Assembly: GCF_003722335.1 (NCBI RefSeq)
Contig: NZ_CP026100.1
Span: forward strand, 62,001-126,000
Length of the DNA: 64,000 bases
From: Caulobacter flavus
GTDB lineage: Bacteria > Pseudomonadota > Alphaproteobacteria > Caulobacterales > Caulobacteraceae
Direction of reading: 5' to 3'
A model generated the notes under the pieces. It was not told where the DNA came from, did not search any database, and saw only the letters and a program-made list of their open reading frames with translations. Both the position numbers and the translations under genes were made by a program. Each line of letters starts with the position of its first letter. The first letter of the stretch is position 1. Positions 51,395 to 54,354 of this stretch are shown here, one piece after another.

Positions 51395-51428
51395 GAAGCT
51401 CATAGAACGAGTTGGCGATTTTCCATGA

Positions 51429-51547
51429 CCCCCTCCCCCTTGATGGGGGAGGGGCAGGGGTGGGGGTGGTGCGGCGTTGGATGCCGCACCGCCGCCAAGT
51501 CAGCAGTCACCCCCGTCCCCGCCCTTCCCCCATCAAGGGGGAAGGGA
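51429..51547. repeat. CCTCCCCCTTGATGGGGGAGG palindrome
   Basis: Outer arms CCCTCCCCCTTGATGGGGGAGGG and CCCTTCCCCCATCAAGGGGGAAGGG enclose a second pair (GGCAGGGGTGGGGGTG / CACCCCCGTCCCCGCC). It lies between the convergent exonuclease and MliC genes; a likely two-way terminator. Confidence 0.8.
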
Positions 51548-52035: not shown

Positions 52036-52350
52036 TCACTCGCCGTCGCGTTTGGCCCTCAGGCGCGCGCTCTCGGCCTTCAGCGGCCTGGAGACCGGGC
52101 AGACCTCCTGCACGAACTCGTTCAGCGTGTTGACCAGGCTGTCGCGGGTCAGGCTGTAGTGCACGAACTGGCCGCGCTTTTCGCTGCTGACCAGGCCCGC
52201 CGCTTCCAGGATCGACAGGTGCTGCGAGACCGCCGGCTTGGAGATCTCGAACCGCGAGGCGATCTCGCCCGCCGTCAGGTCGGCATGGGCCAGATAGGCC
52301 AGGATCTTGCGCCGGACCGTCGACGACAGGGCTTCGAATACGCGTTGCAT
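52036..52350 (-). CDS. ArsR-family transcriptional regulator
   Basis: 104-residue winged-helix regulator with ISKPAVSQHLSILEAAGLVSSEKRGQFVHYSL as recognition helix and wing. No metal-binding Cys pattern of the ArsR/SmtB metal sensors, so the signal is probably not a metal; the look is closer to SdpR-type regulators. Divergent from the membrane pair at 52441, sharing a 90-bp region with repeats at 52359-52408. Confidence 0.88.
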   Translation of the reverse strand: MQRVFEALSSTVRRKILAYLAHADLTAGEIASRFEISKPAVSQHLSILEAAGLVSSEKRGQFVHYSLTRDSLVNTLNEFVQEVCPVSRPLKAESARLRAKRDGE

Positions 52351-52358
52351 GGACCATC

Positions 52359-52408
52359 ATTTAAGCGGTTCGCTAATCGCTTGCAAATTAGCGATGAGGT
52401 ATTTAAGC
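52359..52408. promoter_or_regulatory. Divergent control region with paired repeats
   Basis: ATTTAAGC occurs at 52359 and 52401, 42 bp apart (about four helical turns). Between them CGCTAAT (52371-52377) and ATTAGCG (52387-52393) form an inverted repeat with a 9-bp centre. Candidate binding sites for the ArsR regulator. Confidence 0.6.
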
Positions 52409-52440
52409 AATAACTTATATTGTTTCTTATGGAGGCCGCC

Positions 52441-52878
52441 ATGGATCCGTCGCCGCGCCCAGCCCAGCCGACCAGAGGCGATGCCGTCACGGCCCTGGCG
52501 CTCGGCGTCGGAACCGGCGCCCTGCTGACGACGGCGATGGCGTTCGTCATGTCCGTGCCGACGAGCGGAAGCCTGGCGATCTTCGTGGCCGTGGTCGCCC
52601 TCATCGTCTCCGCGCCGGTCTGGCTGATCGGCCTACTCCTGCTCGGCGGCCCGGTCGGGTGGTGGCTGCATCGGCGCGGCCTCGGCTCCCCGCCAGCGGG
52701 CGCGACGGCCGGCGCCGTGCTCACGGGCCTGGCGACCGCCACCATCCTGCTGACCTTCGGAAATCACCTGCTTGCGGATATCGTGGGATCCCCCTGGGGT
52801 TTCTCCACGGGCCTGGTCGTCATTGGCGCCGTGGTGGGTCTGCAGACCATCGCCTACGCCTATAGGGCCAGGGCATGA
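52441..52878 (+). CDS. Four-helix membrane protein, first of tandem pair
   Basis: 145 residues with four predicted membrane helices, a Pro-rich N-terminus and a short basic end. The segment VSAPVWLIGLLLLGGPVGWWLHRRGLG is matched in the next gene. ATG at 52441 after GGAGG; the frame is open from 52420. It heads a three-gene plus-strand group with 4-bp overlaps and no family recognised. Confidence 0.75.
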   Translation: MDPSPRPAQPTRGDAVTALALGVGTGALLTTAMAFVMSVPTSGSLAIFVAVVALIVSAPVWLIGLLLLGGPVGWWLHRRGLGSPPAGATAGAVLTGLATATILLTFGNHLLADIVGSPWGFSTGLVVIGAVVGLQTIAYAYRARA

Positions 52879-53306
52879 ACGGCCGCACCAGCGCCGGCGC
52901 GGTCTTGGCGGCCATCATCGTTGGCGCCGCAGTCGGATCGGTCCTCGTTTCAGGCTGGCTCTTCGTCCCGAGCCTTTTCGGGGAGCTTCCCGAGCTCGCC
53001 CCGCTGGTCGCGGCGGCCGGCTTCGTCGTCGCCGCGCCGCTCTGGGTCGGCGGTCTGCTGCTGGTTGGCCTTCCCGTCTGGACGGTCCTGCACCTGTGCG
53101 GCGCCCGCTCACGCTGGATCGGCACAGCCGCCGGCGCGGTCCTTTCCCTGCCCGCCCTCGTCCCGGGCCTCGTCGTCTGGGGATCGGCCCTGTCGGACGA
53201 AGCCATGGGGCTGGCCGTCGCTCTCGCCAGCCAGGCCGGCACGGGCGCCGTGGTCGGCTGGGTCGTCGTGCATGTCGCCTATGAACGCGAAGGAACCCTA
53301 GCATGA
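52875..53306 (+). CDS. Four-helix membrane protein, second of tandem pair
   Basis: 143 residues with four hydrophobic helices. VAAPLWVGGLLLVGLPVWTVLHL in the second to third helix matches the corresponding segment of the preceding protein, and both share AGAVL-type helix starts, so the two are probably paralogues from tandem duplication. ATGA overlap with the upstream gene and 4-bp overlap with the desaturase gene. Confidence 0.75.
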   Translation: MNGRTSAGAVLAAIIVGAAVGSVLVSGWLFVPSLFGELPELAPLVAAAGFVVAAPLWVGGLLLVGLPVWTVLHLCGARSRWIGTAAGAVLSLPALVPGLVVWGSALSDEAMGLAVALASQAGTGAVVGWVVVHVAYEREGTLA

Positions 53307-54211
53307 GCGCCCACCACGACGATCCCTACGCCGTCCATTCCATCGCGCCCGACGCCGGCGGCGACGCCGTGACAGGGCGCGTGGCCTGGGCGCCGGCGAC
53401 CTCGCTGTGGCAGGGCGTCATGCTGGCCGGGACCCTGGCCGCGCCGTTCTTCTTCAGCTGGAGCGCTCTGGCCGTCTTCGTCGTCCTGACCGGCGCCACC
53501 CTGCTGGTCGGACATTCGGTCGGCTTTCACCGCCGGTTGATCCACGGCAGCTTCGAAAGCCCGCGCTGGCTGGACTATCTGATGATGTGGCTGGGCACGC
53601 TGGTGGGCATGAGCGGGCCGCTGGCGATGATCGCCGCCCACGACCTGCGCGACTGGGGCCAGCGCCAGGCCGCCTGCCACCCCTACCTCTCCAATCGCGC
53701 CGGCTTCTGGACCGACTACGCCTGGAACCTGCACGGCCGGCTGGCGCTCGACACGCCGCCCAGCCAGGTGCTGCCGCCCCGCGTCACGGGGGACCGCTTC
53801 TATCAGTTCCTGGAACGCACCTGGATGCTGCAGCAGGCGCCCGTGGCGCTGGCGCTGTTCGCGCTCGGCGGCTGGTCGTGGCTGCTGTGGGGCGTGGCCG
53901 CACGGGTCTGCGTGTCGGTGACCGGCCACTGGTACGTCGGACGCCTGGCCCACCGCACCGGCCCGCAGAGCTGGCTGGTCGAGACCTCTGGCGTCCAGGC
54001 CCACGACGTGCCGTGGGCGGCGATCCCGACCATGGGCGAGGCCTGGCACAACAACCACCACGCCTGGCCCGGCTCGGCCCGCATCGGCCTCTATCCCGGC
54101 CAGGCCGACTTCGGCTTCGCCTTCATCCGCCTGCTCGAACGCCTGGGCTTGGCCTGGAACGTCCGCACTCCGGAGACCCTGCCCGAGCGAGCGGAGCTGA
54201 CGGGGGCCTAG
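53303..54211 (+). CDS. Membrane fatty-acid desaturase
   Basis: 302 residues with di-iron histidine boxes: GHSVGFHRRLIH (H71, H76, H81), HDLRDWGQR and HNNHH near the end, and at least three membrane helices. The middle box is the HDxRDW form seen in one acyl-lipid/acyl-CoA branch rather than HxxHH. It should put double bonds in membrane acyl chains, changing fluidity. Third gene of the ArsR-divergent group; electron donor not in the window. Confidence 0.88.
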   Translation: MSAHHDDPYAVHSIAPDAGGDAVTGRVAWAPATSLWQGVMLAGTLAAPFFFSWSALAVFVVLTGATLLVGHSVGFHRRLIHGSFESPRWLDYLMMWLGTLVGMSGPLAMIAAHDLRDWGQRQAACHPYLSNRAGFWTDYAWNLHGRLALDTPPSQVLPPRVTGDRFYQFLERTWMLQQAPVALALFALGGWSWLLWGVAARVCVSVTGHWYVGRLAHRTGPQSWLVETSGVQAHDVPWAAIPTMGEAWHNNHHAWPGSARIGLYPGQADFGFAFIRLLERLGLAWNVRTPETLPERAELTGA

Positions 54212-54218
54212 AGCCCCT

Positions 54219-54354
54219 ACTCCTCCCCCGCTTTAGCGGGGGAGGTGGCGCGCTGCGGATACGCAGCGTGACGGAGGGGGCGACCGCCGGCAATGAGCCC
54301 AGCCTCGCCCCCTCCACCGCTTCGGTCCCCCTCCCCCGTTGCACGGGGAGGAGC
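54219..54354. repeat. CTCCTCCCCCGCTTTAGCGGGGGAGG palindrome
   Basis: Left arm TCCTCCCCCGCTTTAGCGGGGGAGG, right part with CCCCTCCACCGCTTCGG and TCCCCCTCCCCCGTTGCACGGGGAGGAG, and GGAGGGGGCG in between. It lies between the convergent desaturase and folP genes. Same C/G-rich core as the elements at 51.4 and 37.9 kb. Confidence 0.78.

Follow-up and report, generated by a model that had tools for sequence, protein, structure and literature searches.

The desaturase regulators DesT, FabR and DesK/DesR are TetR-type proteins or two-component systems and not of the ArsR type. To our knowledge, the controls of lipid unsaturation known from bacteria are few, and all of them come from other regulator families. 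The SdpR family belongs to the ArsR regulators, whose metal-sensing members carry a set of cysteine or histidine ligands in helix 3 or 5. sdpR and sdpI of Bacillus subtilis form one operon, in which an autorepressor adjoins a polytopic membrane protein (PMC1626106), SrnR works together with SrnQ and nickel (PMC7055735), and RexT has vicinal cysteines, Cys40-Cys41, in helix 3 (PMC8960804). An ArsR-controlled desaturase was not found among the open-access papers listed, as judged from titles, the beginnings of abstracts and selected passages: in the latter, desaturase genes are described without an ArsR (PMC8552747, PMC10725011), an ArsR and a desaturase stand in separate table rows (PMC4005646), or the ArsR belongs to an arsenic operon (PMC3264485).

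Gene layout and genomic setting

The locus described here is located in the 5.66-Mb genome of Caulobacter flavus, which is a single contig, within a stretch of 64,000 nucleotides (the window) whose numbering is used for all positions of this locus. An ArsR-type regulator of 104 amino acids (52036-52350, minus strand) is encoded divergently from three genes on the plus strand. These are MP1 (52441-52878, 145 amino acids), a four-helix membrane protein gene with GGAGG just 5' of it and a possible alternative start at 52429, its paralogue MP2 (52875-53306, 143 amino acids) and DES (53303-54211, 302 amino acids), encoding a predicted membrane desaturase of the SCD fold. The MP1/MP2 and MP2/DES junctions both consist of ATGA, i.e. 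overlaps of 4 bp. Open reading frames, junctions and family matches bear out the layout given in the first-pass annotation, which placed an ArsR regulator opposite a desaturase and a pair of paralogous four-helix proteins, with 4-bp overlaps joining the genes.

As in SdpR/SdpI, a putative ArsR-type autorepressor adjoins polytopic membrane proteins. In contrast to sdpRI, the regulator and its cargo are divergent, the conserved partner is a desaturase, the regulator often occurs without the MPs, and the latter lack a Pfam family. With DesT, FabR and DesK/DesR, the locus would share local control of lipid unsaturation. Judged from the sequence comparisons below, we consider it likely that a local, self-regulating repressor controls a lipid-modifying MP1-MP2-DES operon.

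The unit is flanked by a gene for an MliC-type lipoprotein and by folP. Among 28 folP loci of Caulobacter (31 genomes searched), DES adjoins folP in four, and regulator and MP are present without DES in two. At the other 22 loci DES, MP and a close regulator are all absent within 1.5 kb; among these, L255 and L268 are truncated where their contigs end, and L271 has a weaker ArsR-type match. The unit comes and goes at the folP site. G+C-rich intergenic inverted repeats, spotted by eye, flank the C. flavus locus on both sides (51420-51545, CCCTCCCCC..., and 54215-54350, GGGGGAGGG...).

The regulator and its predicted operator boxes

The regulator matches the ArsR/SmtB models PF01022 with 55.2 bits (cut-off 22) and NF033788 with 82.4 bits (cut-off 55). 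Its nearest NCBIfam model is that of SdpR (NF033789), with 89.3 bits over residues 4-79 and thus under the cut-off of 100; by this curated cut-off, it is a close SdpR relative outside the subfamily. Past the winged helix, the C-terminal segment EVCPVSRPLKxES contains Cys84, which was found in all 72 aligned relatives and is the sole cysteine in 71 of them (the 72 rows, chosen by profile score, represent 70 distinct loci and still include L168 and L171). The sequence does not contain the ligand set of metal-sensing ArsR proteins: no histidine is found at the usual places and there is a single cysteine. The earlier description as a regulator without metal ligands holds insofar as neither Cys nor His occupies the usual ArsR positions, and is to be qualified by the presence of C84. 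The closest solved structure is SrnR (7p6f, E 9.1e-16), with which a 'VCP' segment is common. The ArsR fold is shared with RexT and SrnR, whereas the one cysteine of the C. flavus protein is located near the C-terminus. Since Cys84 is invariant and VCP is common to the regulator and SrnR, thiol chemistry is a natural guess for the signal. The dN/dS values of the regulator are 0.07-0.25 (three or four close genomes). One genome (G022) encodes a second ArsR without Cys84 (L097:3682-3993), 53% identical to the C. flavus regulator and arranged in tandem with the conserved one.

In the intergenic region, ATTTAAGC is repeated at 52359-52366 and 52401-52408, 42 bp apart. These repeats, recorded in the first-pass annotation as about four helical turns apart, proved to be the left half of two predicted operator boxes of the form TTAR-N8-YTAA. 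Box 1 (52361-52376, TTAAGCGGTTCGCTAA) is an exact match adjoining the regulator start, and box 2 (52403-52418, TTAAGCAATAACTTAT), 42 bp from box 1, has one mismatch. The view of a regulated locus with two sites four turns apart is backed by the comparison of related upstream regions. An exact box is present within 150 bp in 62 of 70 upstream regions of related regulators, compared to a mean of 0.9 and a maximum of 6 in dinucleotide shuffles (n=300), and paired boxes at a distance of 30-46 bp, with one mismatch tolerated, were found in 39 of the 70 loci, compared to 0.2 expected by mononucleotide shuffles; both counts overstate independence, because the motif was defined on the counted regions and the loci are related (L168 and L171, whose contigs are those of L093 and L097, were removed). 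The spacing is 40-44 bp in 30 of the 39 loci, most commonly 42 bp. In L116, and similarly in some relatives, an exact palindrome, TTTAAG-N6-CTTAAA, lies at the position of box 2. The strict box 1 pattern TTTAAGNNNTNNNYTWA matches the C. flavus genome once, at this locus, as often as its backward control, which shows the rarity of the pattern and not the complete regulon; since the pattern misses box 2 and its match count equals that of the control, looser sites may exist elsewhere. A perfect inverted repeat absent from the first-pass annotation, TCGCTAAT-N9-ATTAGCGA (52370-52394), recurs exactly in three of the scanned upstream regions (L114, L115, L118), all from close Caulobacter.

Between the boxes, TTGCAA (52381-52386, plus strand) may serve the operon promoter as its -35 element; many relatives have CTTGC or TTGAC between their boxes, likely as -35 element. 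Box 2 would then overlap the -10 element. We infer these promoter positions, since a consensus scan for sigma-70 called no promoter at the locus.

In the proposed mechanism, an ArsR-type dimer would bind the two 16-bp boxes that flank the core of the promoter in the divergent intergenic region. These boxes, at a distance of 42 bp, i.e. four helical turns, would be presented on the same face of the DNA. The bound dimer would silence the MP1-MP2-DES operon as well as the regulator gene itself. Release would most likely be triggered either by a chemical change at Cys84 or by a small lipophilic ligand, upon which MP1, MP2 and DES would be co-produced via coupled translation. DES, as a divergent SCD-fold enzyme, would modify membrane acyl chains, while MP1 and MP2 may act as optional, fast-evolving helpers in the membrane, probably by partnering with DES or by tuning the system locally.

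The predicted desaturase and its linkage to the regulator

DES matches PF00487 with 35.2 bits (cut-off 29.7). Its structure model (pLDDT 85.5 overall, low near box 3) fits best to mouse SCD1 (6wf2, E 3.2e-8, TM 0.72). Fold and histidine boxes 1 and 3 agree with SCD1 and with bacterial acyl-CoA desaturases, whereas box 2 reads HxxRD (HDLRDWGQRQAACH) instead of HxxHH, and extra conserved histidines are present; of the three boxes of a canonical acyl-CoA desaturase, DES thus departs at box 2. The asparagine of WLVNSAAH in SCD1 is replaced by glycine. H[DE]xR[DE] is found in 119 of the 120 homologues listed (of 3055), with P0069 as the exception, and the changed box 2 is, among these sequences, a family trait. 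H113, D114, R116, D117, W118, C125 and H126 are invariant in all 17 aligned DES proteins; H209 is invariant as well, and H71 nearly so. The dN/dS of DES is 0.10-0.13 (three or four close genomes). One further PF00487 protein is encoded in the genome; it has HxxHH, and nothing matching the ArsR of the locus was found in its 1.5-kb flanks.

The exchange of HxxHH for HxxRD could mean that DES is a different oxidising membrane enzyme and not a desaturase, and the adjoining COQ7-family gene in G116, located between MP and DES (L095:5699-6289), as well as the DES-COQ7 fusion protein P0123, encoded on a 3.2-kb contig, would fit such an activity. This assignment is rather unlikely, however, as the fold search with E up to 0.001 matched SCD1 chains and nothing else, histidine boxes 1 and 3 are unaltered, and H71, H126, H209 and D117 could keep a two-metal site. 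Fold and family point to a role of DES as a lipid desaturase, which is the reading followed here.

Among 119 Caulobacteraceae genomes searched, a DES match was found in 24 and an ArsR match (E up to 1e-22) in 29. The two share a unit in 19 DES-bearing genomes; the other five of the 24 comprise G091, G112, G052, where a contig edge intervenes and ArsR is located on a different contig, and the remote matches of G010 and G040. In G091, just the 3' part of DES is left (L109:4663-5199) and regulator and MPs are absent, an apparent case of locus decay. In the 22 genomes with a regulator at least 70% identical to that of C. flavus, DES adjoins the regulator in 17 and an MP-profile match in 16, most of these MP matches being rows used to build the profile. 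Either DES or an MP lies beside the regulator in 21 of the 22, and G049 has neither. The counts include the DES of G061 and some MPs that gene calling had missed.

This type of desaturase is widespread: a pattern scan of GTDB genomes yielded 584 encoded relatives, of which the 80 best-scoring loci were studied; one of the two scan patterns was the box-2 motif, and this selection is biased towards relatives of the query. Of these 80 loci, 41 encode a regulator (>100 bits) at a distance of no more than about 1 kb from DES; they are mostly from alpha-, beta- and gammaproteobacteria. It is divergent in 32, upstream in tandem in 8 and just downstream in one, and a second regulator match above 100 bits was not present in any of them. 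The other 39 of the best 80 are without such an ArsR, in at least three cases (L220, L221, L234) because fewer than 600 bp of contig precede DES. In a draw of 385 alphaproteobacterial genomes, DES (E up to 1e-60) was found in six genomes outside Caulobacteraceae, with a regulator near it in three. The comparison supports the desaturase as main cargo of the regulated locus. Of the four-gene set whose conservation the first-pass annotation proposed to check, the pairing of regulator and DES is kept, while the MPs vary or are absent. On these sequence grounds, regulator and desaturase form the conserved core, and the four-helix proteins, which vary in number and order and evolve fast, look like a local addition.

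A wider reading, which we put forward tentatively and hold to be somewhat doubtful, is a widespread and so far undescribed proteobacterial lipid switch, in which a one-cysteine ArsR repressor would read oxidative or lipid-peroxide stress and, in many lineages through paired boxes at a distance of four helical turns, control a desaturase class with a rebuilt metal site, the four-helix proteins having been acquired as dedicated desaturase partners in Caulobacteraceae and perhaps in some Sphingomonas. The regulator-desaturase pair with its conserved operator and invariant cysteine gives direct, testable access to what may be a new way for many environmental bacteria to respond through their membrane lipids, and to a desaturase class whose box 2 departs from the solved SCD enzymes.

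The four-helix membrane proteins

MP1 and MP2 are 34% identical across most of their length and hence paralogues. Four helices are predicted from hydropathy for each, and the structure model of MP1 is a four-helix bundle (pLDDT 88.4), for which a Tim17/Tim23-like four-helix fold may serve as a lead. Neither protein matched a Pfam or NCBIfam model at E up to 1, including the Pfam family of SdpI. The dN/dS values of MP1 (0.37-0.64, four close genomes) and MP2 (0.61-0.68, three close genomes) are on average about four to six times those of the regulator or DES; FolP gave 0.07-0.10 and the neighbouring MliC gene 0.08-0.36 (three or four close genomes). These values fit real genes that are kept but change quickly.

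The MP profile matched at 31 places in 20 of the 119 Caulobacteraceae genomes (at most 33 candidates scored per genome). Of the 31 places, 22 adjoin an ArsR or DES gene, 16 of the 22 being rows from which the profile was built. Next to the regulator, zero to two copies are found, which precede DES in C. flavus, G064, G071, G116, G022 and G043 and follow it in G002, G003, G025, G066, G073 and G087. Four genomes (G056, G086, G107, G117) have regulator and MP without DES, so that DES is not the sole cargo. Among the best 80 of 584 DES loci, the MP profile matched in five, all from Caulobacter or Brevundimonas. In four of the 41 regulator-DES loci, a small protein with at least three helices starts within 150 bp after DES. 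With an hhalign probability of 95, that of L177 (Sphingomonas kyeonggiensis) is likely to be a distant MP; the comparison gave no support for those of L171 and L231 as MPs, and the fourth is encoded in L191. A related gene in L247 (Sphingomonas), with two predicted helices and a probability of 75, is a weaker case.

The first-pass annotation had likened the locus to SdpR/SdpI-type pairs, in which a membrane protein holds the repressor, and had suggested a membrane-state sensor that adjusts lipid unsaturation. In such a scheme, MP1 and MP2 would sense a membrane agent or membrane state and hold the regulator at the membrane, thereby freeing the operon. The relationship of the regulator to SdpR, the persistence of the MPs beside the regulator where DES is absent, the MP matches of most close regulators (largely profile-building rows) and two conserved MP motifs at the charged and, by inference, likely cytoplasmic ends of helices 2 and 4 would suit such an interaction. 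The analogy found little backing in the wider comparison, however: the regulator stays below the SdpR cut-off, the fast-evolving MPs are without a Pfam family, and MP matches occur in five of the 41 regulator-DES loci among the best 80 of 584, to which the distant candidates in L177 (probable) and L247 (weak) may be added. With the MPs in few of these loci, the regulator seems to work without them in most loci seen, and box spacing is unchanged in loci without an MP match, e.g. in G061, G005 and G012. The variability of the MPs leaves the SdpR/SdpI-like role unsupported, if conceivable within Caulobacteraceae; because regulator and paired boxes are conserved without a detected MP, we regard it as improbable, and then as a local addition to the repressor.

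It is very unlikely that MP1, MP2 and their relatives make up a rapidly evolving family of protective, immunity-like proteins directed against membrane-active agents, with DES participating in a joint membrane defence. Their dN/dS values (0.37-0.68), their copy number of zero to two by the regulator, their occurrence without DES and a tandem run of six such genes in G009 would be in line with this, but fast evolution is common among small hydrophobic proteins anyway, PADLOC gave no match for MPs or DES, and a general look at the neighbouring genes brought up no toxin gene. The preferred role is that of optional helpers of a repressor-controlled desaturase.

In five loci of one genus (L103, L105, L107, L148, L149), the regulator is followed by another four-helix protein (about 147 amino acids) and a protein of 272-276 amino acids, neither of which matched the MP profile. 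In G056, a 192-amino-acid protein without Pfam match overlaps the MP gene at the usual position of DES (L115:5088-5666). The six tandem MP-like genes of G009 are located at L117:2232-5187, with ArsR and DES absent from the 10 kb viewed, and the ArsR relative of this genome is encoded on a different contig.
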